Below are positions 5,263 through 23,531 of a stretch of 25,630 bases of DNA, piece by piece (positions within the stretch are counted from its first letter, which is position 1; each line of letters begins with the position of its first letter). A model generated the notes under the pieces. The model had not been told where the DNA came from. It saw only the letters and a program-made list of their open reading frames with translations, and did no database searches. Where the stretch lies: IMG/VR virus record IMGVR_UViG_3300030419_003817, positions 65,311 to 90,940 of that record; one strand, 5' to 3'. Source of the DNA: a virus. A program made the translations under genes and the position numbers.

Positions 5263-8200
5263 TCAATCTAGTGCAAGGACTCTTAAATCTCTAACGACTG
5301 GAGGGACATCTTGTTCTCCAAACAAACAAATCTTAATAACGAACGATGTTATATTAGAAACGGCAACATCTTCATAATCATCACTCGATAACCTATATTC
5401 TACTTCTCTAAAATCAAAATTACTAGTAGACACAAAACTATCACCAGAAGTTTGCATTTCGACATATGGTAAATAGTCCATATTTTCGTTGCTTCCGTAA
5501 CTTGTATATTTTGCAAAAATCTTAATATCCGAACCAGTTGGTTTATACACATCCAACAATACTCTCAAATCACTTGCTGACATTCCATCAGGCAAAGATA
5601 CTCTTCGAGTTATATATCTTGCTCGTGCGGCATCAAGTCCAGAAACCGTTGGAAGTTTTTCATTTATTATTCTTGTTCCTGTAAACTCATTTATACTATT
5701 TTCTACACAAGTTATATTCATCAACTTAGAGTCAATAACAGGAGAAATTGCAGTAGTTGTTGGTGAATATTTTAAGGTGCTAGTCAAAGTAAAGTCTGCT
5801 TCAGATTTACGAATAGTTTTAAGTGGGACTTCTGCGCCTTTTGATATATTTTGATTTAAAACCACATCGAAGGAGTTTGCGTTTTGTATACTTACACTAT
5901 GGTCCATCAATTCTTCTGATGGGTTTATTGTGTGAGTATTAATTCTGAATGTATCACATTCCATTTTTCTTGCGGAGATTGGTCCAGAAAGATTATGGTT
6001 TTTAAATATTACCGTTGCGTTAGATGCTTCAAACTCACAACGATTAATTTTAAACATCAAATCTGTGGTTAAATCTATGGTTGACACACTTTCGTTTTGT
6101 GGGTGGAATAATGAACCAGTATATGGGTCAGATGTAATTCTGTTCTGTGTTCCCATATTATTTTCCCCAATAGTGGCGGCATACAATTCATATTCATCAC
6201 TGTTTGCAGACAAAACAAATGCGTAGTCTCCACCCTCCAGATATATTGGAGATGAGAATTTGAAATTAGTTTTCGTTGTGGGCATTTCTTCATCAACATT
6301 TACCTCAGATGAAAGTTTTACAACTTCAGATAGAGGGACTATGGTAGATGAGTGTGGATATCCATCAACGACTGGTCTAATTTGTAAAGTGACTGGGAGA
6401 TTTTCATCTTTGCTTGCAAAGTAAAGGTCTACACTGTGCAAGAACACACCAGATGGATATTGATTGGAGTCTACTGTGAATGTTTGTGCAAGTGGGTCGA
6501 CCCATAAACTATTTTTACGAGTGTTTAGTGTGTAATGTCTGCTGAATACATTACTTGCTATATTTTCAGAAGAAACGGATTGTCTTCTTATAACTGCTGG
6601 TCTTGTAGATACAACATTTGAACCTGCCCTTTGCGGTAAAATACCAGTTGCGTGATATACTGCTTCTGCTGATGTTACCGCGCCCTCTGCATTGTTGTTT
6701 GATTCATCCGTAAGTCTGAAGAGTTTTTGTCCAGTTGTAAATGTTCCTGATGGAATAGCAAACTGTAGATTTACTATAGAACCATTTGAGTCGGTTGTAA
6801 TTGTTCCACCCAATGAACCTCCACTTGGAGTGCAGTGTTCTGAAACATTTTCTTCATCAAAGAATGCATGAAGTGTTGTGTTTGGTTTTAGACCGTGTGC
6901 ATTTATAGTGAGTGTTTTAGGTCTTATAAACGGAACAATACTAACATCAACAATTTTATTGTTTACTTGTTTTTTAAGTTTGTGTGGTAAACTTCGTACC
7001 CTAACACCAGTTCTTGTTTTTGCTTCACCAATAGTTGGTGCTGTTCTTGAAATTAGGTGTGTATTGTTTTCTCTAAGTGTTTGAATGTTAAACTGTTTAT
7101 TTGATACACTTGGTGATTCAATGAAATCTTTACCGTCTGTGTTAAATATATCACTTTCATTGACTTCAATACCACACCATAAACTTTCCCAATGATTCCA
7201 TTGAGAACCCCATCCCTTAGAATTTAGTGCTTTAAGGTCTAAAGTTTCTTCTGAACCAACAGAAGTGTCATCATAATTGGCAACTTTCCAGTTGTCGTGT
7301 TCCCCACGAACATTAATTTTCACTACTGGTCTATAATCCACATCGAACCAAGTATCGCAAGGTGGGTCTAATGTTAAAGTACCAAGAAAATCAACAAGAT
7401 TAAACGGATTAATTTTCAATGTTTTGCTTGCTGAGGTTTGACTAACGAAACTAATAGGATTATCATCATCATAGTTCAATGTAATCAAACCATCTGAAGA
7501 TTGCTTATATCCCAAACTACCTGCTGTCAGACCCAAATCAATATTTTCAAAATGGAATGATGGTCTTAATTCACCCTCTTCTATGTCAATAGAAGCAACA
7601 AAGTCATTATCAGAAATGTCTGCAAACGAATAATTTTTAAAGTTGTCTACAACAACCCCCTTCTTAAAAGCAACTGAAGAACCATCATATGAGAGAATAT
7701 TTCTTCCCTCAGTATTGCTTTCAAGTTCTGATAATGTAGAATAGTATTCGATATTAGATATTCGTTTATCAAGATTGCCGATATCAGACATAGTATATCG
7801 TTGATTATTGATTAATTGAACTCTAACATCTTCAGCATTGTGAGTGTATGGAGGAACAGATAAAATATACAAAGATAAAGAATCTTCTCTGTCATTTGGT
7901 GCTTTTGGATTTAACGAGGGAACGCCTTTTATTATCTCAAAAGCATGGTCTTCTTCATTTATAGTTTTCTTTAAAACAATCTTATCAATTCTTGGGAGAT
8001 AATATTCATGAGATTCAAAGATTACATCACTTGAAAGAACACCTGTTCTTGGGAATCCACCACCAACAAGTGGGGCATCTTGTTCAACTGCCCCATCAAT
8101 TCTAGTCAAACGAGATGGTCTAAAGTCCAAAACATTTGCGAGGGACACAACTTTGTTGGTATCGGTTATTGTGTATAGAGGAATATCAACTAAATCAAAA

Positions 8201-11127
8201 CCCTGTGCAGTGTAGGAATCTACTGTAAAGGGTTGTCCAGAACCAGTATGTTCAAAGAAATCGTAATTGATATTAAGAGTGGTTACTACAGAACCATCCG
8301 CATCATAGTAATTTGCAACTTTGTCTGGTTTGATATACAAACGACCATAATCGTACCTATCATCTCTTTGACCATTATCAAATATAAAGTCAGACCTTCT
8401 ATCGACATCTGTTCCTGAAGCATTACCGGCAGTTCCACCAGTAAGTCCATTTATTCTATAGATGTCTGCGTGTGGAAGAATAAAGTAATGTCCAGTATCA
8501 TCTACTTGAACACCATCGTTTGCTCCATCTACAGCAATACCGCTATAGTCAAAGTTCGTAAGTGTTTTATTTCTTCTTAGATATGTTCCAACACCATCAT
8601 CATTTGCATCTCGAACTCTTACGGTGGCAACAAGAGTATAAACATCATCGTCATCTAATACTCTAAGGTTATCATCTGCTGAAGGAACTATTCCAGAAAT
8701 TCTTAAAGTCTTCTTTCCATCTGTTAATGAAACTGTATATTGTTCCTCTGTTAAATCTATAATATAACCTGATTGTGTTGACACCAAGAAGTAATTGTAT
8801 CGAAGAGTTACATTGCTTAGAACTTCGTTGCCAAGGTCGTCAGCAACACCCTCCCCCATAAAAGTGGTGTCGCCTATCGTTGAAAATATAAGTTCTGTGT
8901 CACCAAGTCCTAAGTTGGAGGTTAAAACATCTGACCTTGTGTATTCGAGAGTCCTTACACTCTTAACGAGTGGACCTTCTGGAATCGGCAAGATGAATGT
9001 ACTGCTTCCTTTAAGACCATCGGGGTCAATTGGGTGGTGTGCCCAACTACATCCGGCCGCTTCTCTTGATTCTGGTAAAGTCCAATTTAATTCATCTGGA
9101 TGTATTCCAGCAAACAATGCTTTATATCTGTTGTCATGTGGTAGAGGACTTCCTGTTGTTTCATCATAACCCCAGTTGTATTGATATTCTCCGTTTCTAT
9201 CAGCAACACGGCCATCGCTGTGGCTGTTAGCAGTGGGATATTCAGAATTGTTGGCGTCTTGAGGAACACCAATATTAGTATTCTCGGTGGTAACAGCATA
9301 TGTGTTTAGTGTGCCAGGGTCTATATCAGTAACACTAATCAGTGCTACATCTTCAATTCGGTGTCCAACCCAACTAAACACCGCCTGAGGTCTAACATCG
9401 TCTCGAATGTTTCCGTGGTGATTTGGTTTAAACATCTCTATATCATAAAGATAAATTCTATATGATGTATTTTCAGTGGCACCTATTTTTGGTTGTATTG
9501 TAAAAGTTTCAACCCCATCTGCAACCACTGCTCTTATTTTTGCTCTCCCAATGACAGGTGCAACATCAACAAACGATTTATCAGATGCCGCATTATCTCC
9601 AACCCCGTCAGTAGAAGAAGTGATTTGTTGCATATGTCTATCACCACCCCAAGGAACACCATTGGGGTGTGATTCAAAGAATAATGGGTAGCGGCGTTCT
9701 TGTACATCACTATTTGGGTCGATATTGCCTGGACCACCAAAATCATCAAACTGAGACGCAATCAGTTGGTCAGACACATTATAATCGTAATGTGGTAGTC
9801 GTCCGTGAAGATTTACTTCAGTTCCGTTTGCAATAACATCTGCTAGTTTTGAACCAAGACCAATACTGTTAAAATAGTCATCCTGAACCGCAGTGGCCGC
9901 ATCAAATGTTCTATTAAAGAGTGCTGATACTGGCCAAGCACCAGAAATGTATGTTCCAAGATTTCCTTCAATCTCTGCACTTCTTGATGTTTCTGTTGTT
10001 CTTGCCTTGTCTAAATCAAGGAAGTGTGTCTTCTGTGTCTCATATTCATGTCCATGAACATATGCTTTGCCAGGTTCGATACCAACTGCTACTTTTGCTT
10101 CGTCTCCACTGGTGCCCGAGTATACACCCCGATTTGTCCCATCGTTAATATGTTCTCTCACATCAATTCCAAAAGGAGTTACAGTATAAGAACCAGATTC
10201 ATCATAGGTTCGTCTTGCAAGAGTCTTCTCAAGTTCCGCATATTCTGTCTTTAAAATTCTTTTTGTTGGAAGACCGTTTTCATAACGAACAACTTCAATA
10301 AAATCTTTTGCGATTGTACTCTCTTGAGAAAGTTTAAGATTTATTAAATATCTGTCAGCACCCGGCGCATTGTAATTATAAGAACCGCTTGCGGGGTCTC
10401 TCAGAGTCAAATCTTGAGAATCTGATATTGAAGTTTTGTTTAAATTAAATCCTACATTTGTTGTTGGGTCTACAAAATTTCTTACCGTTGACGAGTCACC
10501 AGATAGACCAAACGGACAAAATCTTTGCATATCATTTTTTACGAAGTGACCATCAACATAAAAGATACCATCACTTACCGATACAATATTTGATTCACCA
10601 GAAAGACCATTTGAACCAAGAACTGAAGTTGCGTCCGTTGAGGTGGATGATACACTTGCAAATGTTCCGTTCCAAACTGCGCCTGGATATGATGATGTGA
10701 AGTTACTACCTTCCAAGAAACTCGAACCACTCAAGAAGGTAATAAAGAGAATTTTGTAATTGTCGTCCCCAGAATATGAATCAATCGCATGAACAACCTT
10801 TGCCCTTGTGGTTGTTCCAACCTGAGTAATTTCATATCCTATAAGTTGGTCAAGTGGTATATTATTACCATCGGTGTCCGCTACTTGAACTCGTTGATAG
10901 CGAATCTTTGTAGTAGCAATTTCTGCACCATATACTTTACTTCCATCTTTGAATATATGATTACCAAAACGCTCTATTTGGTTTTGAAGAATAGTTTGAA
11001 GTTGTGTGAGTTCTCTTGCTTGAACGGCATAACCAGGCCTGAACAAGACTTTAAGAAACTTCTTTGTCTCATCATAGTCATCAAAATATGGAGTTATATT
11101 GAAAACTGTTGGGTCATATGCCGGCAT
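5263..11127 (-). CDS. Giant DUF4815-type virion protein (baseplate/fibre connector)
   Basis: 1954 residues, the largest gene in the window. The N-terminus (YFDDYDETKKFLKVLFRPGY, then AVQARELTQLQTILQNQIER and FGNHIFKDGS) is the signature of the DUF4815 family of marine T4-like phage structural proteins. The C-terminus (FVIKICLFGEQDVPPVVRDL, then RVLALD) also matches the typical ending of that family. It follows gene 8, where T4 carries genes 9-11, so I infer that it links the baseplate wedges to the fibres and replaces some or all of gp9/10/11. The interior is a long run of beta-rich sequence (for example PLAQTFTVDSNQYPSGVFLH) without recognisable enzyme motifs. The start is ATG at 11127-11125, with GAGGAG 11 bases upstream. 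The family call is firm; the baseplate position is inferred. Confidence 0.85.
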   Translation of the reverse strand: MPAYDPTVFNITPYFDDYDETKKFLKVLFRPGYAVQARELTQLQTILQNQIERFGNHIFKDGSKVYGAEIATTKIRYQRVQVADTDGNNIPLDQLIGYEITQVGTTTRAKVVHAIDSYSGDDNYKILFITFLSGSSFLEGSNFTSSYPGAVWNGTFASVSSTSTDATSVLGSNGLSGESNIVSVSDGIFYVDGHFVKNDMQRFCPFGLSGDSSTVRNFVDPTTNVGFNLNKTSISDSQDLTLRDPASGSYNYNAPGADRYLINLKLSQESTIAKDFIEVVRYENGLPTKRILKTEYAELEKTLARRTYDESGSYTVTPFGIDVREHINDGTNRGVYSGTSGDEAKVAVGIEPGKAYVHGHEYETQKTHFLDLDKARTTETSRSAEIEGNLGTYISGAWPVSALFNRTFDAATAVQDDYFNSIGLGSKLADVIANGTEVNLHGRLPHYDYNVSDQLIASQFDDFGGPGNIDPNSDVQERRYPLFFESHPNGVPWGGDRHMQQITSSTDGVGDNAASDKSFVDVAPVIGRAKIRAVVADGVETFTIQPKIGATENTSYRIYLYDIEMFKPNHHGNIRDDVRPQAVFSWVGHRIEDVALISVTDIDPGTLNTYAVTTENTNIGVPQDANNSEYPTANSHSDGRVADRNGEYQYNWGYDETTGSPLPHDNRYKALFAGIHPDELNWTLPESREAAGCSWAHHPIDPDGLKGSSTFILPIPEGPLVKSVRTLEYTRSDVLTSNLGLGDTELIFSTIGDTTFMGEGVADDLGNEVLSNVTLRYNYFLVSTQSGYIIDLTEEQYTVSLTDGKKTLRISGIVPSADDNLRVLDDDDVYTLVATVRVRDANDDGVGTYLRRNKTLTNFDYSGIAVDGANDGVQVDDTGHYFILPHADIYRINGLTGGTAGNASGTDVDRRSDFIFDNGQRDDRYDYGRLYIKPDKVANYYDADGSVVTTLNINYDFFEHTGSGQPFTVDSYTAQGFDLVDIPLYTITDTNKVVSLANVLDFRPSRLTRIDGAVEQDAPLVGGGFPRTGVLSSDVIFESHEYYLPRIDKIVLKKTINEEDHAFEIIKGVPSLNPKAPNDREDSLSLYILSVPPYTHNAEDVRVQLINNQRYTMSDIGNLDKRISNIEYYSTLSELESNTEGRNILSYDGSSVAFKKGVVVDNFKNYSFADISDNDFVASIDIEEGELRPSFHFENIDLGLTAGSLGYKQSSDGLITLNYDDDNPISFVSQTSASKTLKINPFNLVDFLGTLTLDPPCDTWFDVDYRPVVKINVRGEHDNWKVANYDDTSVGSEETLDLKALNSKGWGSQWNHWESLWCGIEVNESDIFNTDGKDFIESPSVSNKQFNIQTLRENNTHLISRTAPTIGEAKTRTGVRVRSLPHKLKKQVNNKIVDVSIVPFIRPKTLTINAHGLKPNTTLHAFFDEENVSEHCTPSGGSLGGTITTDSNGSIVNLQFAIPSGTFTTGQKLFRLTDESNNNAEGAVTSAEAVYHATGILPQRAGSNVVSTRPAVIRRQSVSSENIASNVFSRHYTLNTRKNSLWVDPLAQTFTVDSNQYPSGVFLHSVDLYFASKDENLPVTLQIRPVVDGYPHSSTIVPLSEVVKLSSEVNVDEEMPTTKTNFKFSSPIYLEGGDYAFVLSANSDEYELYAATIGENNMGTQNRITSDPYTGSLFHPQNESVSTIDLTTDLMFKINRCEFEASNATVIFKNHNLSGPISARKMECDTFRINTHTINPSEELMDHSVSIQNANSFDVVLNQNISKGAEVPLKTIRKSEADFTLTSTLKYSPTTTAISPVIDSKLMNITCVENSINEFTGTRIINEKLPTVSGLDAARARYITRRVSLPDGMSASDLRVLLDVYKPTGSDIKIFAKYTSYGSNENMDYLPYVEMQTSGDSFVSTSNFDFREVEYRLSSDDYEDVAVSNITSFVIKICLFGEQDVPPVVRDLRVLALD

Positions 11128-15307: not shown

Positions 15308-17224
15308 TTAATATGAAGATGATGTTCCAGATGAAGATGATGTTCCAGATGAAGATGATGTGGTTGACTGTGACGCAGATACAGAGGAAGCAACTGAACC
15401 AACTGCGGATATTGAATCGCTTGTAAATATTGAAGTTTTTATTGATTCACTGTCGTTTCTGTCGATTAAAAGTATATCTCTTTTTGATGCGATAATATCT
15501 AAAGTTCTTGGTTTTGCATTTATCTTTATGAAAGATTGTCCCTCTAACTGATTTGGAGCAAACGAAGTTAAAGTCACCAATCCTGTATCATAATTTACAG
15601 TTCCTATATTTTCTTGGAAAATTACTTTAATACTTCCACTGAATTCATACAATTGAATACGACCAAACCCATCATCTTCCATGTACGCTGTAGTCGTTTC
15701 TCCTGTCTTTTTCTTGTAAAGGAACGCATCACTTCGGATTGTTCCTGGCATATGTCCATCATGGGGATGTTCTAATGCATTGTTAAATTTAATATCATAT
15801 GTGGACGAAACACCAAACAAAGGACTCAACCGCTTCTGCATGGTTACAATAGACCTGTTGTTTGTAACAGATATATCAATTCTATTTAATTTGGTTGTAA
15901 ACACACTGTATAAAAAGTTATTGGTAAACTTTTCTAAATCGTTATCAGCATAAGACAAAATTTGTATCTTTGCAAGTGCCTCTATTTCTGCACTTGATAG
16001 TTTTGTTTTTGCTGGGTCATAATATATCTGAGAATCTACCAACAGATAAATGTAATCAGGGTCTACAACTTCGGGGATGATGGTCACAAGACTTTTATTC
16101 TTAATATAAGTATCAACAATTGATTTCTTTTCACCTTCACTAATCATAGTTCCAGTTTGTGGTTTGATTGCAACAAAAACCTTTCCATACTGGGGTGGGT
16201 CATTGTCCTCTCCACCCCAAACATAGATGGATTCTACATTGCTATAATCTTTCTTTATGTTTGTGGTGTAGTCATCCACAGTAACAGACCTGTTCTGTGA
16301 TTGATATGCCTTAGGAGCATAGAATCTAACCGATTCTGTATTTTCCTTTGCACCGCCACCCACTGCTTTCTGTTTTACAATAACACTTGCTCCACCAGAA
16401 CCAGACATTGTAAATGCTCTTGTTGAAGTAGAATCGTTACTACCAGTGTCGTTCGCATCTGGACCGTTTGTTTCGAAATATTCTATCATTACAAGATTAC
16501 CATCAGAAACTTTTTGACCCACAATACCATCACCGAAGTAAATTTCATAATAACCATTTTCTATTTCTTGAACCCAATAAGCATAGGATGTGTTGGTTAT
16601 GTCCAAGATGTTATCAGCGAGTGTCCATTCGTTTAAATAACCAGTTGTGTCTGTGACAGATGTTTGTACCCTAATATTCAACAATTGAGTATCAACTGTC
16701 TTGCTTGGAATTATAAATTTCTGCGAAGCATCTGATGAGTCCACAACATAAGTGTAATTCTTGTAAGAACCTTCATATATTTCTACATTTTCGGCAGTGA
16801 ATCCGTTAATAGTATGAGCAGAAGGATTCGTGAATGTAAATGAACTTCCATCGACACCTCTAGCAGTAAAAATACTTCTAGCAGGAACTACAGCATCTGT
16901 TTGTGCTGATGGGTATGAGATATCCACTGTTGCCTTTGCGGCACTGAAAGATGATGGAATATAACCTAAATGTTTTGCACGAGAAACTACAGATGGCCGA
17001 GTCACAGCAGTATCAAGGAACATTTCATTTGCAACCATGTTTGCATAAAATGCTTGGTAGTGTGTGTTGTATGCAAGGATGTCCAAAAGATGTGAAAGAG
17101 CAGAACCCTCAAAATCATAGTCGGTGAAAGTGGGTAGTGACTTTAAATAGTCTTTTAAACTTTCCTTAATACCATCAAAGTCTAAACTGGTTAATGGTGT
17201 ATCAATTGGTGAATCTGTTGCCAT
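15308..17224 (-). CDS. 6: Baseplate wedge protein gp6 (Baseplate_J family)
   Basis: 638 residues, close to T4 gp6 (660). gp6 forms the inner iris ring of the baseplate that triggers sheath contraction. Diagnostic segments are the N-terminal helix block (FTDYDFEGSALSHLLDILAY, then NTHYQAFYANMVANEMFLDT and a KHLGYIPSS stretch) and the central VTVDDYTTNIKKDYSNVESI followed by WGGEDNDPPQYGKVF, both highly characteristic of marine T4-like gp6. The start ATG (17224-17222) has GAGG 8 bases upstream, formed by the last codons of gene 25, so the two genes look translationally coupled. Unusually, the C-terminus ends in a serine-rich low-complexity tail (about 30 residues) encoded partly by an 18-base tandem repeat. 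No cysteines are visible. Identity is secure. Confidence 0.95.
   Translation of the reverse strand: MATDSPIDTPLTSLDFDGIKESLKDYLKSLPTFTDYDFEGSALSHLLDILAYNTHYQAFYANMVANEMFLDTAVTRPSVVSRAKHLGYIPSSFSAAKATVDISYPSAQTDAVVPARSIFTARGVDGSSFTFTNPSAHTINGFTAENVEIYEGSYKNYTYVVDSSDASQKFIIPSKTVDTQLLNIRVQTSVTDTTGYLNEWTLADNILDITNTSYAYWVQEIENGYYEIYFGDGIVGQKVSDGNLVMIEYFETNGPDANDTGSNDSTSTRAFTMSGSGGASVIVKQKAVGGGAKENTESVRFYAPKAYQSQNRSVTVDDYTTNIKKDYSNVESIYVWGGEDNDPPQYGKVFVAIKPQTGTMISEGEKKSIVDTYIKNKSLVTIIPEVVDPDYIYLLVDSQIYYDPAKTKLSSAEIEALAKIQILSYADNDLEKFTNNFLYSVFTTKLNRIDISVTNNRSIVTMQKRLSPLFGVSSTYDIKFNNALEHPHDGHMPGTIRSDAFLYKKKTGETTTAYMEDDGFGRIQLYEFSGSIKVIFQENIGTVNYDTGLVTLTSFAPNQLEGQSFIKINAKPRTLDIIASKRDILLIDRNDSESIKTSIFTSDSISAVGSVASSVSASQSTTSSSSGTSSSSGTSSSY
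15314..15361. repeat. 18-base tandem repeat, about 2.7 copies, in the gp6 3' end
   Basis: The unit TGAAGATGATGTTCCAGA occurs twice exactly (15314-15331 and 15332-15349) and then a third partial copy (15350-15361) before the sequence diverges. On the coding (minus) strand it encodes repeats of Ser-Ser-Ser-Ser-Gly-Thr at the very C-terminus of gp6. Exact short tandem repeats of this kind arise by slippage and can vary in copy number. Confidence 0.9.
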
Positions 17225-17227
17225 GGT

Positions 17228-17635
17228 TTACCTCAGTCTTTGCAATGCTGTGTTTAATGTTATCGTTTCTGTCTGGTTTACAATTGTAAAAATAATAGAA
17301 CACTCAAATGCATTCTTGTCAGGAAAAGCATAAACCTGAACATCAATCAGGTTTACTCTTGGTTCAAATTGAGAAATCAAATCCTTAATGTTTGACTGTA
17401 TCAAAGATGCGGTAATTGGTGTCACATTTTCAAACAACAGTCTTCGTAATCTAGAATTAATTTCTGGTCTAAATGGTCTTTCATATTTCGATGTAAATAT
17501 GAGATTTTTGAGAGACCTCTTAATTGCTTCGGCATCAAATTTACGAACGACATCCTTTGTGATTGGATGTCTGTCAAAGTTCATATCCAAATCAACAAAT
17601 CTATTATCGTTCGACCTATTTCTTTTATATGCCAT
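17228..17635 (-). CDS. 25: Baseplate wedge protein gp25
   Basis: 135 residues, matching T4 gp25 (132) in size. It carries the Glu-Pro-Arg motif conserved in gp25 and the type VI secretion homologue TssE, at residues 91-93 within QFEPRVNLIDVQV. Other family marks are NRFVDLDMNFDRHPITKDV near the start, the helical KRSLKNLIFTSKYERPFRPE block and SRLRRLLFEN. gp25 sits between gp6, gp53 and the first sheath ring and helps nucleate sheath assembly. Despite the old 'lysozyme-like' family name it is not expected to be an enzyme. It lies directly before gene 6 and 11 bases after the membrane GAF-like gene, without a clear Shine-Dalgarno. In T4 gene 25 lies in a different operon from gene 6, so its place here reflects a marine-type rearranged order. 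Confidence 0.95.
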   Translation of the reverse strand: MAYKRNRSNDNRFVDLDMNFDRHPITKDVVRKFDAEAIKRSLKNLIFTSKYERPFRPEINSRLRRLLFENVTPITASLIQSNIKDLISQFEPRVNLIDVQVYAFPDKNAFECSIIFTIVNQTETITLNTALQRLR

Positions 17636-18308: not shown

Positions 18309-21260
18309 CTAAAAGGTGCCGCCATCACACATAGAAGGCATTAATCCTTTGTCCGCAATGTACTGAAATCCTGATTTTTTATTTGACGGTTCTAATCCCG
18401 ATGTATCTCTTGTTGCAATATAAACTTTGTTGTTGTATTCTACGATATCATTTTTCTTGTATGATTTTTTTGTTGATGTTGATTGACCTCTCGGAGCATT
18501 TTCAAACTTACTGTAACTTCCTATCCAGTTAAAATCACTGTTACTACGAACAGCATTGCGAGGGACACCAAATTGGTCAAGATACTTTTGCTTTTTCCAA
18601 TCTGGCCATGCATCGTCCCACTCATCACGAGGGTCAACACTCTTTAATATACACTCGGGCGCACAGCATGTTTCTTCATAGGACTCTATCATATCTTTGA
18701 TTTTCTTATCAAAGTTGTTTGCATCTCGAAAACATTTCTCAAGAGCCCTTTCTGCATCACGAATCTCCCGTCTTAACTTATCACAAATTGGGTGAGTTGG
18801 TGCAAACACCTCACCAAATTTAGTAATACTCATATCACACCCTTGCTTTGCGGCCGCATCCTTGGCGATTATCAACAACATTTTATTGGTTAAACATATA
18901 CACCTCATCGTGTGTGCGAGTGTTGGCATAAAATTAAGAATCGATGCAATAAAACAACATGCCGCAGCCAGTTCGGCATCTTCGTCCCACTCCCCATACC
19001 AGTTTGGTTCGAATTCCATGTCCGTACAATCACACGCTTCGGGAGCAAGAACATTGATGCATTTATTCCGTTCATCTATTAATTCTTTCGCCCGCCTTTC
19101 ACATTCGTCAATTTCTCTTCGTAACTCTTCTATCTCATTTACGAAATCACTATTAGTAACATTTGCTCTTGCTTCACCAAATGTCCTGTCCAAAATGGGA
19201 TACAAGTCTTCCTCATAATGTTCTATATCGTGTATTAATTCATTAATCGTTTCACCACCACGATTTTGGAAAAATGACTTCATTAGTTCTTCATTAGATT
19301 GCATCTGTGTAAAAATTGTAATTAATGAAGTAGACCTATTAATTAAAGACTGTCCCTTTTGTATAATTTCATCATTTGTCGCCTGATGTGCGTTACACAA
19401 ATACTCTGGACGAACTCTTGCACCCCATTTTTTACAGAGATATTGTCCATCATCAAGTTCTTGATAAAAATGACAATTAGCACACTTTTGCTCACTGGGT
19501 GCGTATCTATATGTTTGTGGTAGTCTCAACGAGATGAGTGTTCCATCTTCTAGATGTCTCGGAGTTGGAGGAGGGACATATCTGAGAAGTTGATGGTATC
19601 CATCACAGTATTTGTTCATCACTTTTTGCAACTCGTCCGTCACACCTAATAACTCTTGAAGTTTCCTTTCCACTTCTCCGTGAAATTGTGTGACACCCAT
19701 CACAAGACCATTGGGCATAAAGTATGTTGTGCCACCTAGTATATGTGTATGATAACCAAGAGTGTCCTCTCCCTCTCTAGCGACATTGGGAGTAGGACTT
19801 GCGTTTACTGCATCTTCTTTGTTTCTATAAAGAGGGAAGTAACCGTCTAATTGAATAGGCGGTGCAATCCCACCGTTTTTATATTCTTCTTGTTCTTGTC
19901 GAATTTTTTCTCTTGTTTGATTGACAGCATCTGCCGCCATCTGAGTCAAGTGGTGTATCATCTCATTATGAGGTTGTAACCCACAACACACCAATCCAAG
20001 AAATTGTCTTCTCCATTCATCTGGCCAACTTTGTGGTAATCCATACTCGTCTTTTGATTCTACACCCCACTCTGAATCAGGTCTTATATCTGGTGGCCAT
20101 GAAATATCGACTGGGTATCCGTCTGGTTGTGGAAAATCTCTGAGACAGTCTCCACTGCCGGTTTTCAGATTAGGTTCATGTGGTTCAATTACGATATCAC
20201 CTTCGTGAATTAACATCGAACCATCTTCACCAAACTCTATATTATTTTCTCTAAACCAATCATCCTGTATACTTTTCAAGTTTTCAATTCTTCTTAGAAT
20301 TGGTGGTAAATTTAAAATAGGGTTTGGTGAATTAATTAAATTATCTGCAAGAGAACGAACATCCGATTCAAAAATTTCTGTAACTGGTTCGGATGCGGAG
20401 CGTTCATCAGGAGGACAACATGGTAGGTATGGATATAATTTAGAAAGAATAAGGTCTCTGTTTCCTTGAAGGAAACACTCAGCATTAATGTCATCACAGT
20501 CCTGATAATTGTCAGGTATAAACCATTCGGGGTCAAATGGTTCGTCCATTTCTCCAATTTCAGGACTAAAACATATTTCACAACCGCCTGCTGTAAGACC
20601 ATGATACCACTCATCGACCGTGGTTGCAAGTGACAGGGGTGTGTAGTTTCCACAATCGCAGGGAATTTCTCTACCAAATTTAACTTCCCATATACACACA
20701 GGAAGAGAGTCCTCGCCCCACTGACCGTTCATCGGGTCTTGATTTTGTAGATACGGCGTCAAAGTGCCGCGCCAGAAGGTAACGCCATCTGGATATGAAT
20801 TACTGATACATACAGATTGCTTCGTAACATATTGAATATGCATGTTAACGGATTTTAACAAATAGGGGGTTGTAGACCCTTCAACACGACAACGAGAATC
20901 TCCCATAGGAACTCTTTCGAGATTTTCTTTACCAATCGTAAACTTAATTCTTGCATGTACCGTTTGAAAACAAGTGCCTTTGTCTGTTCCAGATTCACCA
21001 TACAACAAAGGCACAACATCGCCTGGATATCCAGGCGAAGTAAGTTCGTCCGTGTTCACCATCGAGATGGGTGTCGAAGTTCCCATCGGAGTCTGCGGAG
21101 TAGTTGGAGTCTCCATTGGGGTCTGTGGAGTAGTTGGAGTCTCCATTGGGGTCTGTGGAGTAGTTGGTGTCGCAGGTGGCGGACTAGCAGGCACACTTGC
21201 GGGTGGAGTCGCAGGTGGTGGTGTGTAGTTGTTTTGATTTCCTCCAGTATGGTATGGCAT
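18309..21260 (-). CDS. Cysteine-rich modular tail protein with HiPIP-like motif and CBM-like C-terminus
   Basis: 983 residues; not recognised as any T4 protein. Visible parts in order are: a Pro/Thr-rich neck (about 12-65) with a 10-residue repeat of the type ETPTTPQTPM; a beta-rich cysteine-containing region (about 70-260, for example CDCGNYTPL and GGCEICFSPE); a central helical part; a four-cysteine cluster C593-x2-C596-x12-C609-x12-C622 (CANCHFY, then CKKWGARV and YLCNAH) resembling high-potential iron-sulphur or zinc-ribbon clusters; a coiled coil (EIEELRREIDECERRAKEL); a hydrophobic stretch near 763-802 with CC at 768-769; a second coiled coil; and a C-terminal segment (about 931-968, KKNDIVEYNNKVYIATRDTS) resembling CBM5/12 carbohydrate-binding modules. 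I count 35 cysteines, against few or none in neighbouring structural proteins. The position after the PAAR and 284-residue genes suggests a tail hub or tip part. Metal binding and sugar binding are inferences from motifs. Confidence 0.75.
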   Translation of the reverse strand: MPYHTGGNQNNYTPPPATPPASVPASPPPATPTTPQTPMETPTTPQTPMETPTTPQTPMGTSTPISMVNTDELTSPGYPGDVVPLLYGESGTDKGTCFQTVHARIKFTIGKENLERVPMGDSRCRVEGSTTPYLLKSVNMHIQYVTKQSVCISNSYPDGVTFWRGTLTPYLQNQDPMNGQWGEDSLPVCIWEVKFGREIPCDCGNYTPLSLATTVDEWYHGLTAGGCEICFSPEIGEMDEPFDPEWFIPDNYQDCDDINAECFLQGNRDLILSKLYPYLPCCPPDERSASEPVTEIFESDVRSLADNLINSPNPILNLPPILRRIENLKSIQDDWFRENNIEFGEDGSMLIHEGDIVIEPHEPNLKTGSGDCLRDFPQPDGYPVDISWPPDIRPDSEWGVESKDEYGLPQSWPDEWRRQFLGLVCCGLQPHNEMIHHLTQMAADAVNQTREKIRQEQEEYKNGGIAPPIQLDGYFPLYRNKEDAVNASPTPNVAREGEDTLGYHTHILGGTTYFMPNGLVMGVTQFHGEVERKLQELLGVTDELQKVMNKYCDGYHQLLRYVPPPTPRHLEDGTLISLRLPQTYRYAPSEQKCANCHFYQELDDGQYLCKKWGARVRPEYLCNAHQATNDEIIQKGQSLINRSTSLITIFTQMQSNEELMKSFFQNRGGETINELIHDIEHYEEDLYPILDRTFGEARANVTNSDFVNEIEELRREIDECERRAKELIDERNKCINVLAPEACDCTDMEFEPNWYGEWDEDAELAAACCFIASILNFMPTLAHTMRCICLTNKMLLIIAKDAAAKQGCDMSITKFGEVFAPTHPICDKLRREIRDAERALEKCFRDANNFDKKIKDMIESYEETCCAPECILKSVDPRDEWDDAWPDWKKQKYLDQFGVPRNAVRSNSDFNWIGSYSKFENAPRGQSTSTKKSYKKNDIVEYNNKVYIATRDTSGLEPSNKKSGFQYIADKGLMPSMCDGGTF
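21079..21172. repeat. 30-base tandem repeat, about three copies, coding a Pro/Thr neck
   Basis: Units begin at 21091, 21121 and 21151. The first two 30-base units differ at one position, the third matches over its first 17 bases, and a degenerate partial unit precedes them at 21079-21090. On the minus strand each unit encodes a 10-residue Pro/Thr block (ETPTTPQTPM). The array lies near the N-terminus of the 983-residue cysteine-rich protein and probably forms an extended linker. Confidence 0.9.
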
Positions 21261-21264
21261 CTAA

Positions 21265-22119
21265 TTACAGTCCCGACAATTGGTCTATGATTTCTGAAAT
21301 TCCTTGTCCAGATTGTTTTCCTAAAGCATCCTGCATGTTGTTCACTGCTCCCTTTAAAGAAGAAGTTGCTAACATATCATTAAAAAGGTAATTTGAAAAA
21401 CAATCATCCTCATCCTGCATCGAATTCATTATACCGATTGCTGAACTATGATTTGACACATAGTTAAGTGCCTCGGCAAATGCTGAATCATCCGAATTTA
21501 TGAATGATGTAATATTACTTGCATGTTCATTTAACACATTAGTTGCAGATGTGAGTTTTCCTGCCAAATCAAAACCACCAGAAGTAAGTTGCCCAAGTCC
21601 AACACCCTCTGGTAAAATATCAGAAGTAATTGAAGTTAATTGACTACTCACACCGCTAAACATTTCTCCTGCATTCTTTTGTAAACTTCCGTATATGTCT
21701 GTAAATCCTCCACCAAGACTGCCTTCCATTTGCTGTTTGATATGAGAATACGATTTTGCAATTGCAAATCTTTGACCAAACTCTTGTAGATTTTCTACAC
21801 CCACTCCAGATATTCTATCTACATGGGTTTTATAATTCATAATATTTCCCTGAAGGTCTTGAACACTTGAATATAAACTATTCACTTGGTTTGCTAAAGC
21901 AGGTTGTCCACTTGCTTGTAATAGTTGACCCACAGAACCCAATCGCTCTAGTGCGTTTGAAGCATCTGTGTCGAACATTGAAAATTCATTTTGGAAAGGA
22001 TTCATCAATCCACCACCACTAAGAATAGTATTAATTACTTCCTTCTGTTCGGGAATTAACTGACTGATACTTTCTTCTAAAGTATCACAATCTGTTGGAA
22101 ATATAAATTCTCTTGCCAT
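21265..22119 (-). CDS. Unrecognised helical protein after the PAAR gene
   Basis: 284 residues; I do not recognise the family. The sequence is mostly predicted helix with long amphipathic runs, Gln/Asn/Ser/Gly-rich linkers, no transmembrane segment and no enzyme motif (for example SVGQLLQASGQPALANQVNS, then LYSSVQDLQGNIMNY and FGQRFAIAKSYSHIKQQME). Only two cysteines are seen, one near the N-terminus (FIFPTDCDTLEES) and one in an acidic patch near the C-terminus (QDEDDCFSNYL). The start is ATG at 22119-22117 with AGGAG 7 bases upstream; that site overlaps the PAAR stop, implying coupled translation. Placement between the spike tip and the cysteine-rich protein suggests a virion or tail-hub assembly role, but this is only context. 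The stop is 4 bases before the next start. Confidence 0.75.
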   Translation of the reverse strand: MAREFIFPTDCDTLEESISQLIPEQKEVINTILSGGGLMNPFQNEFSMFDTDASNALERLGSVGQLLQASGQPALANQVNSLYSSVQDLQGNIMNYKTHVDRISGVGVENLQEFGQRFAIAKSYSHIKQQMEGSLGGGFTDIYGSLQKNAGEMFSGVSSQLTSITSDILPEGVGLGQLTSGGFDLAGKLTSATNVLNEHASNITSFINSDDSAFAEALNYVSNHSSAIGIMNSMQDEDDCFSNYLFNDMLATSSLKGAVNNMQDALGKQSGQGISEIIDQLSGL

Positions 22120-22126
22120 ATTTTAA

Positions 22127-22131
22127 CTCCT
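22127..22131 (-). promoter_or_regulatory. Shine-Dalgarno AGGAG for the 284-residue gene
   Basis: AGGAG on the minus strand lies 7 bases before the ATG at 22119 and overlaps the PAAR stop codon (TAG at 22132-22130). This supports the chosen start and translational coupling of the two genes. Confidence 0.75.
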
Positions 22132-22393
22132 ATCCCGCAAAAACATTTCCTGAACCAGTACTTGTATGACCGCATGATGCACTGTCACCCTGTCTACAAA
22201 CAGGAATCCCCTGAGCAAATACTGTGCTTGATGCTCCTACCATAATTGGACTGCTGTGTGGGGGAAGACCGTGTCCCGCAACAGGTCCTCCTAAAACCTG
22301 TGCAGGCGCTCCGTTCACAAAGACAGTTGTGTTTCCTCCTCCCAACTGCATACCTCCTGCTGTATCTGTTCCTACTCTTGCGATTCCTGGCAT
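22130..22393 (-). CDS. 5.4: PAAR-repeat spike tip protein (T4 gp5.4 counterpart)
   Basis: 87 residues, close to T4 gp5.4 (97). PAAR proteins form a sharp cone that caps the beta-helical spike and binds a metal ion near the apex. The sequence has the family layout: MPGIARVGTD, GGNTTVFVNGAPAQVLGGPV, then GHGLPPHSSPIMVGASSTVF and VCRQGDSASCGHTSTGSGNV. Candidate metal ligands are His41, His46, Cys66, Cys74 and His76. I chose the ATG at 22393-22391 because PAAR proteins start at this point and a strong AAGGAG lies 6 bases upstream. A longer in-frame opening to 22486 exists but overlaps the spike gene by some 80 bases and adds an unrelated leader. It directly follows gene 5, as expected for a spike-tip pair. 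Confidence 0.93.
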   Translation of the reverse strand: MPGIARVGTDTAGGMQLGGGNTTVFVNGAPAQVLGGPVAGHGLPPHSSPIMVGASSTVFAQGIPVCRQGDSASCGHTSTGSGNVFAG

Positions 22394-22399
22394 CGTTTT

Positions 22400-22405
22400 C
22401 TCCTT
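22400..22405 (-). promoter_or_regulatory. Shine-Dalgarno AAGGAG fixing the PAAR start
   Basis: An exact AAGGAG on the minus strand, 6 bases before the ATG at 22393, overlaps the stop codon of the spike gene (TAA at 22406-22404). It decides for the short PAAR start over the longer in-frame opening. Confidence 0.8.
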
Positions 22406-23531
22406 AAATAACCCCACCACCAACAGGTGGTTCACTAATGGTGTTCTGTCTTGGAATAGAGTTTGGTGGTTCTTGAACACCGGCACCAGAGTTTAAATAT
22501 ATGTTACCGTCTGCTTGAATTCGAAACTCACCTGCAAGTTTCCCAACACAATTCCCACCAGATATTGCAAAATCAACCAACCCTTCTTGGTCTCGAAGAA
22601 AGATACCATCTTGTGATTTTATAAAAGTGGTCTTATCACAATTTGTTGTTAAAAGTCCCTTTACATTTATCCTCGCATCTTCATCCACTGTTGCTGTTAA
22701 GTTTTTATGAATGTTTGCCGTAACATCACCGTCTACCTCGATGTCACTATTGCCCTTGACGAAAAATGTAGAATTGCCTTCTACAGTAACATTTACATTC
22801 CCTTGAATGTTAACATTCTTATCCCTGACAACAATCTCATAATCATCACCAACAACCTTTGTTACCCTTGAACCATCTGGATGAATCTCTTCGAATGTTC
22901 CTGATTTATGATAAGTATGAATTCGTTCTGCTTCGGGAGTATCATCAAACTCTTGAACATGTCCCGATTCAGTTGTATATACTTGATTGAGAGGATACTC
23001 CGCCGCATAAGGAACTTCAGGTTCAGACCATTTGTTGGTTTTTTCACCATCACTGTTCACATTGTTAGCAATCTCTACCTCTTCGATTCTGCTTTCTTCT
23101 TTAGAAACAACAATTGTTTCTTCCTTTATTCCTCTAGCAAGTCGATGTGTGTCTGGTTCGTCTGTCTCTTTTGGATATACTCCACTTGGGTCATTGAATC
23201 CCAGTTCTGTGTTTGCCTTTTCGGTGGGGATACCACCAATCGAACCAAAGATAACTGGTTGTTGTGCATCTTTACCATCTCGAAAGAATCCAACAACATG
23301 TGTACCCATAACCAAACCAGTTGGTGAATTACCAACACCACTAATCGAGGCATCTGTTATCGGTTGTATTGGATGTGCCCAAGGCAACTCTTCAGTTGGA
23401 ATGTCTTGTTTATTTGAGGAATGATATCCAAAAATTCTAACACGACAGCGGCCGAGTGCCAGAGGGTCTAAAACATCCTCCACAACTCCGTGAAACCAAA
23501 TAAAACCATCTTTTCCGAGATACTCACTCAT
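22404..23531 (-). CDS. 5: Baseplate spike gp5-like, without lysozyme domain
   Basis: 375 residues against 575 in T4 gp5. An N-terminal OB-fold (about 10-115) is marked by FIWFHGVVEDVLDPLALGRC, then WAHPIQPI, THVVGFFRDGKDAQQPVIFG and SIGG, the gp5/VgrG pattern. A linker follows (about 115-190, rich in Glu and Pro), then YHKSGTFEEIHPDGSRV and a triple beta-helix-type run of alternating residues (about 225-345, for example NVNIQGNVNVTVEGNSTFFV). The C-terminal tail is PPVGGGVI. T4 gp5 carries a lysozyme domain between OB-fold and helix; here the intervening segment is too short and lacks it, so this spike is expected to pierce mechanically. The start ATG (23531-23529) overlaps the stop of the small upstream gene as ATGA. 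Followed at once by the PAAR tip gene. Confidence 0.92.
   Translation of the reverse strand: MSEYLGKDGFIWFHGVVEDVLDPLALGRCRVRIFGYHSSNKQDIPTEELPWAHPIQPITDASISGVGNSPTGLVMGTHVVGFFRDGKDAQQPVIFGSIGGIPTEKANTELGFNDPSGVYPKETDEPDTHRLARGIKEETIVVSKEESRIEEVEIANNVNSDGEKTNKWSEPEVPYAAEYPLNQVYTTESGHVQEFDDTPEAERIHTYHKSGTFEEIHPDGSRVTKVVGDDYEIVVRDKNVNIQGNVNVTVEGNSTFFVKGNSDIEVDGDVTANIHKNLTATVDEDARINVKGLLTTNCDKTTFIKSQDGIFLRDQEGLVDFAISGGNCVGKLAGEFRIQADGNIYLNSGAGVQEPPNSIPRQNTISEPPVGGGVI

Follow-up and report, generated by a model that had tools for sequence, protein, structure and literature searches.

Sequence comparisons suggest that phages reuse one HiPIP-like, putatively iron-sulphur domain across many unrelated proteins

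Does a short run of four cysteines in a phage tail protein mark an iron-sulphur cluster, and does it belong to that protein alone? The question is raised by a 983-residue open reading frame (ORF P0001; 18309-21260, minus strand) in a 25,630-nucleotide stretch of viral DNA, referred to here as the window (positions 65,311 to 90,940 of IMG/VR record IMGVR_UViG_3300030419_003817). The record that contains it is 90.9 kb long and is a T4-like phage contig. A sequence-only reading of the window had likened the motif to high-potential iron-sulphur proteins (HiPIPs) and had named a zinc ribbon as the main alternative. The comparisons described below suggest that phages reuse one seemingly unstudied domain, predicted to hold iron and sulphur, in many unrelated proteins.

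A four-cysteine module in a baseplate-region protein

The ORF, defined by its translation and its neighbouring genes, is uninterrupted over all 983 residues and lies among baseplate genes. A gp5-like baseplate hub (22404-23531, minus) is adjoined by a PAAR spike-tip protein (22130-22486, minus), followed by an ORF assigned to Pfam DUF7217 (21265-22119), the 983-residue ORF itself, a gp25-like wedge protein (17228-17635, minus) and a gp6-like wedge protein (15308-17224, minus). Because the listed PAAR ORF overlaps gp5, its true start probably lies closer to 22404. The gene order supports a baseplate protein, and with it the earlier assignment to the tail. An ORF of 1954 residues also lies in the baseplate/tail region (5263-11127, minus). 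A scan found no relatives of the DUF7217 gene, and whole-length relatives of the 983-residue protein were found neither in phage records, viral contigs, the PDB and PHROGs nor by blast of the region.

Orthologues were recognised by their ends at loci near gp6 relatives (L071, L074, L087, L089, L090, L091 and L092, some of which are overlapping copies of one contig). They start with M[SP]YHTG and a Pro-rich stretch and end in DGG[ST]F, with middle regions that vary; the L091 orthologue is cut at its start. The window protein opens with MPYHTG and a Pro/Thr-rich linker (21081-21260, minus), common to all but L091 of these orthologues, and its C-terminal part (residues 920-983; 18312-18503, minus) is CBM5/12-like below the cut-off and carries the same type of ending, DGGTF. 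Residues 462-529 (GYFPLY...GYHTHILGGTTYFMPNGLVMGVTQFHG; 19674-19877, minus) form a second shuffled module that is 51% identical to L090/L091. This segment contains GYHTH...MPNGLVMG...FHG, and its HxH could bind metal in a trimer. A Cys-rich helical region (residues 676-870; 18651-19235, minus) is weakly similar to a region of L071; it precedes the four-cysteine module in L071 and follows it in the window, a difference in order that indicates domain shuffling.

The module itself occupies residues 571-628 (EDGTLISLRLPQTYRYAPSEQKCANC...CNAHQAT; 19377-19550, minus), as delimited by profile match and family alignment. Positions 19395-19484 on the minus strand encode CANCHFYQELDDGQYLCKKWGARVRPEYLC, residues 593-622, and translation bears out the originally proposed spacing C593-x2-C596-x12-C609-x12-C622. 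Translation and alignment make Cys593 (19482-19484), Cys596 (19473-19475) and Cys609 (19434-19436) the predicted cluster ligands 1 to 3, and alignment makes Cys622 (19395-19397), with Leu before it and His at +3, the predicted ligand 4 (all minus strand). Nine residues before Cys593, Tyr584 (19509-19511, minus) falls in a column that is nearly invariant in the family alignment. It may correspond to the tyrosine that HiPIPs conserve upstream of the first cysteine, Tyr14 of Iro (PMC10654088).

Cysteine spacing by itself is weak evidence here because the protein is cysteine-rich, with 35 cysteines among its 983 residues, many of them outside the module. The loose pattern C-x2-C-x8-16-C-x10-16-C turned up 327 times in 5000 shuffles, and no shuffle out of 5000 gave the pattern once aromatic and Asn positions were added. 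A profile built from 28 other phage copies, leaving out that of the window, found the window protein at E=7.6e-13, and the best of 500 shuffled copies reached 0.058 against the same profile. The four cysteines thus belong to a conserved domain rather than to a chance run.

A phage domain family with HiPIP-like sequence

Weak matches in phage records proved to have the same arrangement: HTVC202P gp22, the prohead protease of Pontimonas phage phiPsal1, which carries its copy in the N-terminal part, and LR756508, an uncultured large phage. Searching viral contigs for a single codon form of C-G-N-C yielded at least 43 copies, and at least 64 distinct copies are known when other loci are included. 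The module sits near the N-terminus of prohead proteases (phrog_80) and at the C-terminus of portals (L101 and L235; phrog_145) and of a protein with a cytidyltransferase-family region (L154:261-2576, minus; phrog_395). It precedes a GPYHIHPDNGPMVGAQH region in a 363-residue protein (L237:2588-3679) weakly similar to a baseplate wedge family, and it also stands alone in small genes. All four cysteines are invariant in the 29 aligned copies, the window copy included.

When 17 whole records were searched, nine held exactly one copy and eight held none. This is only suggestive of one module per genome, since all nine were known beforehand to hold the module and records may be fragments. Seven of the matchless records had been reached through gp6 relatives; the eighth is that of Synechococcus phage S-SRM01, whose more PioC-like copy falls outside the profile and forms a 67-residue gene (L095:2965-3168) with the HiPIP-like ending DGWC. 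Bacterial genomes gave no match to portal-type copies and four copies of the protease type, on contigs of one Microbacteriaceae metagenome-assembled genome (MAG). A Variovorax frame from the latter scan was spurious. Pfam HIPIP run over the Microbacteriaceae MAG (G002) gave three matches, all below the cut-off, the first of them at the position of the module (L216). Cas4/RecB exonuclease matches from the first search were set aside as another type of cysteine cluster, judged by eye on one translated match. Provisionally, the family is well defined and apparently undescribed; the open-access literature, to which our survey was confined, contained nothing on point about HiPIPs in phages.

At the level of the family, the resemblance to HiPIPs is real. 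A profile of the 29 copies, the window copy among them, returned HiPIPs as its first 14 PDB matches, from E=6.9e-4, with the four cysteines aligned to the HiPIP ligands and the first non-HiPIP at E=4.3; HiPIP sequences are mutually related, and the 14 matches are not independent. The 28 phage copies without the window aligned by hhalign to a profile of nine HiPIP sequences, taken partly from pieces of HiPIP matches and partly from bacterial genomes, with probability 94.5 and score 40.3. None of 300 column shuffles with the cysteines held fixed reached that score (maximum 28.2) and the reversed alignment scored 14.3, so the similarity extends beyond the cysteine columns. Pfam HIPIP matched 20 of the 29 members at E<=1 (best 7.3e-6), and the LR756508 copy cleared its cut-off at 27.2 bits. 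A cellular HiPIP profile found S-SRM01 (2e-10, the closest to cellular HiPIPs of the phage copies tested), LR756508 (5e-7), a portal copy (1.6e-5) and others. Zinc families gave only stray single-member matches among the 29 (E 0.05-0.94), none significant.

The nearest known family is accordingly PF01355, especially its small PioC/Iro-type members. They have four cysteines in the same order and at similar spacing, and the phage module shares the Asn of CxNC, the aromatic after CxxC and the upstream Tyr; most phage copies also have an aromatic before the fourth cysteine and W/Y at +3. The window copy departs from this pattern and is embedded in a baseplate-region protein, whereas cellular HiPIPs are small exported carriers. 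The residue before the last cysteine is Tyr or Trp in 60 of the 63 copies counted for residue use, among those listed, and Leu in the window; position +3 is Trp or Tyr in 61 of these 63 and His in the window; Gly two before the last cysteine occurs in just two of them. The Tyr-Leu-Cys ending that had been read from the window is correct, and it stands, with His at +3, where HiPIPs have G-[YW]-C and an aromatic. Every orthologue bears the module in a more HiPIP-like form, ending YWC..Y. The window copy scored 17.7-18.0 bits against Pfam HIPIP (cut-off 22), with only the half around the first CxxC aligned, and the cellular HiPIP profile found it weakly (0.036). Over the whole 90.9-kb record, the sub-cut-off match at the module was the single Pfam HIPIP match. 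With this score and its lost aromatics, the window copy is termed HiPIP-like rather than filed as a HiPIP.

Predicted structures are supportive of a HiPIP fold, though not decisive. When the window copy was modelled by AlphaFold from 29 sequences without templates (pLDDT 74.7; HiPIP structures were in AlphaFold's training), HiPIPs took ranks 1 to 3 in a Foldseek search of the PDB, with probabilities of 0.69-0.90 and TM up to 0.52, but at E values of 0.43-0.82 that are not significant. Lower ranks included a 4-hydroxyphenylacetate decarboxylase-type small subunit and benzylsuccinate synthase accessory subunits. A second, low-confidence model, of a standalone copy (pLDDT 66.6), had no HiPIP among its Foldseek matches. 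In a viral structure library, a 484-residue protein ranked first (E=5.7e-4); its length suggests that it is probably the phiPsal1 protease. Further matches were a mixture that included zinc-ribbon, zinc finger and rubredoxin-like names at similar Foldseek scores. Rank 20 was named 'High potential iron-sulfur protein like', which indicates that automated annotation had already picked up the resemblance.

Standalone copies and other cluster proteins

Standalone modules directly follow nrdB, overlapping its end, in five contigs (L163, L230, L232, L233 and L234). L163 and L232 show the whole order nrdA-thioredoxin-nrdB-module, with thioredoxin and NrdB assigned by Pfam; the L230 contig starts within nrdA, and L234 within nrdB. 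All that is left of nrdA in L233 is its final residues, at the contig start ~3.3 kb before thioredoxin, a gap that implies something between the two. In E. coli, the gene for the ferredoxin YfaE, which maintains the NrdB cofactor, lies after nrdB (PMC7082346, PMC5963079). The standalone phage module holds the same place (PMC5963079), but YfaE, a ferredoxin, has a different fold, and the analogy is one of gene position and excludes the window copy. By this analogy, the standalone copy more likely serves to carry electrons.

Small HiPIP-like [4Fe-4S] folds also serve in an accessory role in glycyl radical enzymes, as the subunits HPAD gamma, BSS beta and MASS beta/gamma (PMC12358834), and some of the Foldseek matches of the window model are of their class. 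They differ from the phage module in belonging to enzymes, and sequence similarity between the two was not detected. Among phage tails, iron-sulphur clusters are known from lambda gpL (PMC11101478) and from the hub of roseophage R4C, where four cysteines belong to a domain of two discrete segments (PMC10276861). The gpL-type [4Fe-4S] domain is found in the siphophage tail tip, in a different protein from that of the window, and general searches of PHROG, Pfam and the PDB did not return the gpL family for the window protein.

Cluster, zinc or disulphides

The alignments and profiles establish a conserved domain family with sequence similarity to HiPIPs; what the window copy binds is a matter of likelihood. 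The HiPIP-like reading first offered gains from the profile similarity, the neighbours of the AlphaFold model and the upstream Tyr; the Foldseek E values do not add to it, and the iron we infer. That the window domain is HiPIP-like and binds one [4Fe-4S] cluster seems to us about evenly poised between true and false. Host cluster machinery would load the cluster while the phage protein is still cytoplasmic. In the baseplate copy, the most likely role would be that of a small buried 'staple', stiffening the protein or docking it in the manner of the HiPIP-fold subunits of glycyl-radical enzymes, and a HiPIP-type burial of the cluster would fit an oxygen-exposed virion. The broader proposal of a mobile HiPIP-like [4Fe-4S] module, fused into prohead protease, portal and baseplate proteins and, where it is a separate gene behind nrdB, supplying phage ribonucleotide reductase with electrons, is tentative and somewhat doubtful as a whole.

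A single zinc ion in a ribbon-like knuckle would make the module a structural or protein-docking domain whose likeness to HiPIPs is convergent. Four cysteines within ~30 residues could hold zinc, the zinc-type names from the viral structure library point the same way, and the window copy is missing two conserved aromatics. Typical zinc ribbons, however, have CxxC...CxxC, whereas the third and fourth cysteines here are single and mostly 12 apart; each zinc family matches at most one of the 29 members, no zinc protein precedes E=4.3 in the PDB profile search, and the similarity to HiPIPs holds beyond the cysteine columns. We consider zinc unlikely. Two disulphides in the finished virion, with no metal, would be compatible with a protein of 35 cysteines, many beyond the module, stabilised by disulphides in oxic water. 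Prohead proteases and the small, cytoplasmic-type proteins encoded next to nrdB keep all four cysteines without exception, in settings where disulphides are unlikely, and disulphides leave the HiPIP similarity unexplained; this reading is improbable.

A redox-active cluster in the virion, either a baseplate switch thrown on meeting the cell envelope or electron carriage retained from a metabolic ancestor, is improbable too. Electron carriage is the job of HiPIPs, and the standalone form after nrdB in five contigs has the layout of E. coli nrdAB-yfaE. Against it, the window record, a fragment, gave no match to NrdB, no redox partner is suggested in the baseplate, and the domain sits in a structural-type protein. 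The original reading had also invoked the 'Ferrojan horse' idea of siderophore-receptor entry. No supporting evidence was found and the idea was dropped; most copies found lie in head or metabolic genes, and a module that also turns up in prohead proteases, in portals and in small genes next to nrdB speaks against receptor entry as the explanation.

Should the module bind a cluster, as the HiPIP-like reading predicts, iron-sulphur clusters would be a regular part of many phage proteins, virion proteins included, well beyond lambda-type tail tips. Phage assembly would then depend on clusters supplied by the host. Where the module stands alone behind nrdB, it offers a directly testable candidate mechanism by which certain phage ribonucleotide reductases may maintain an active cofactor.
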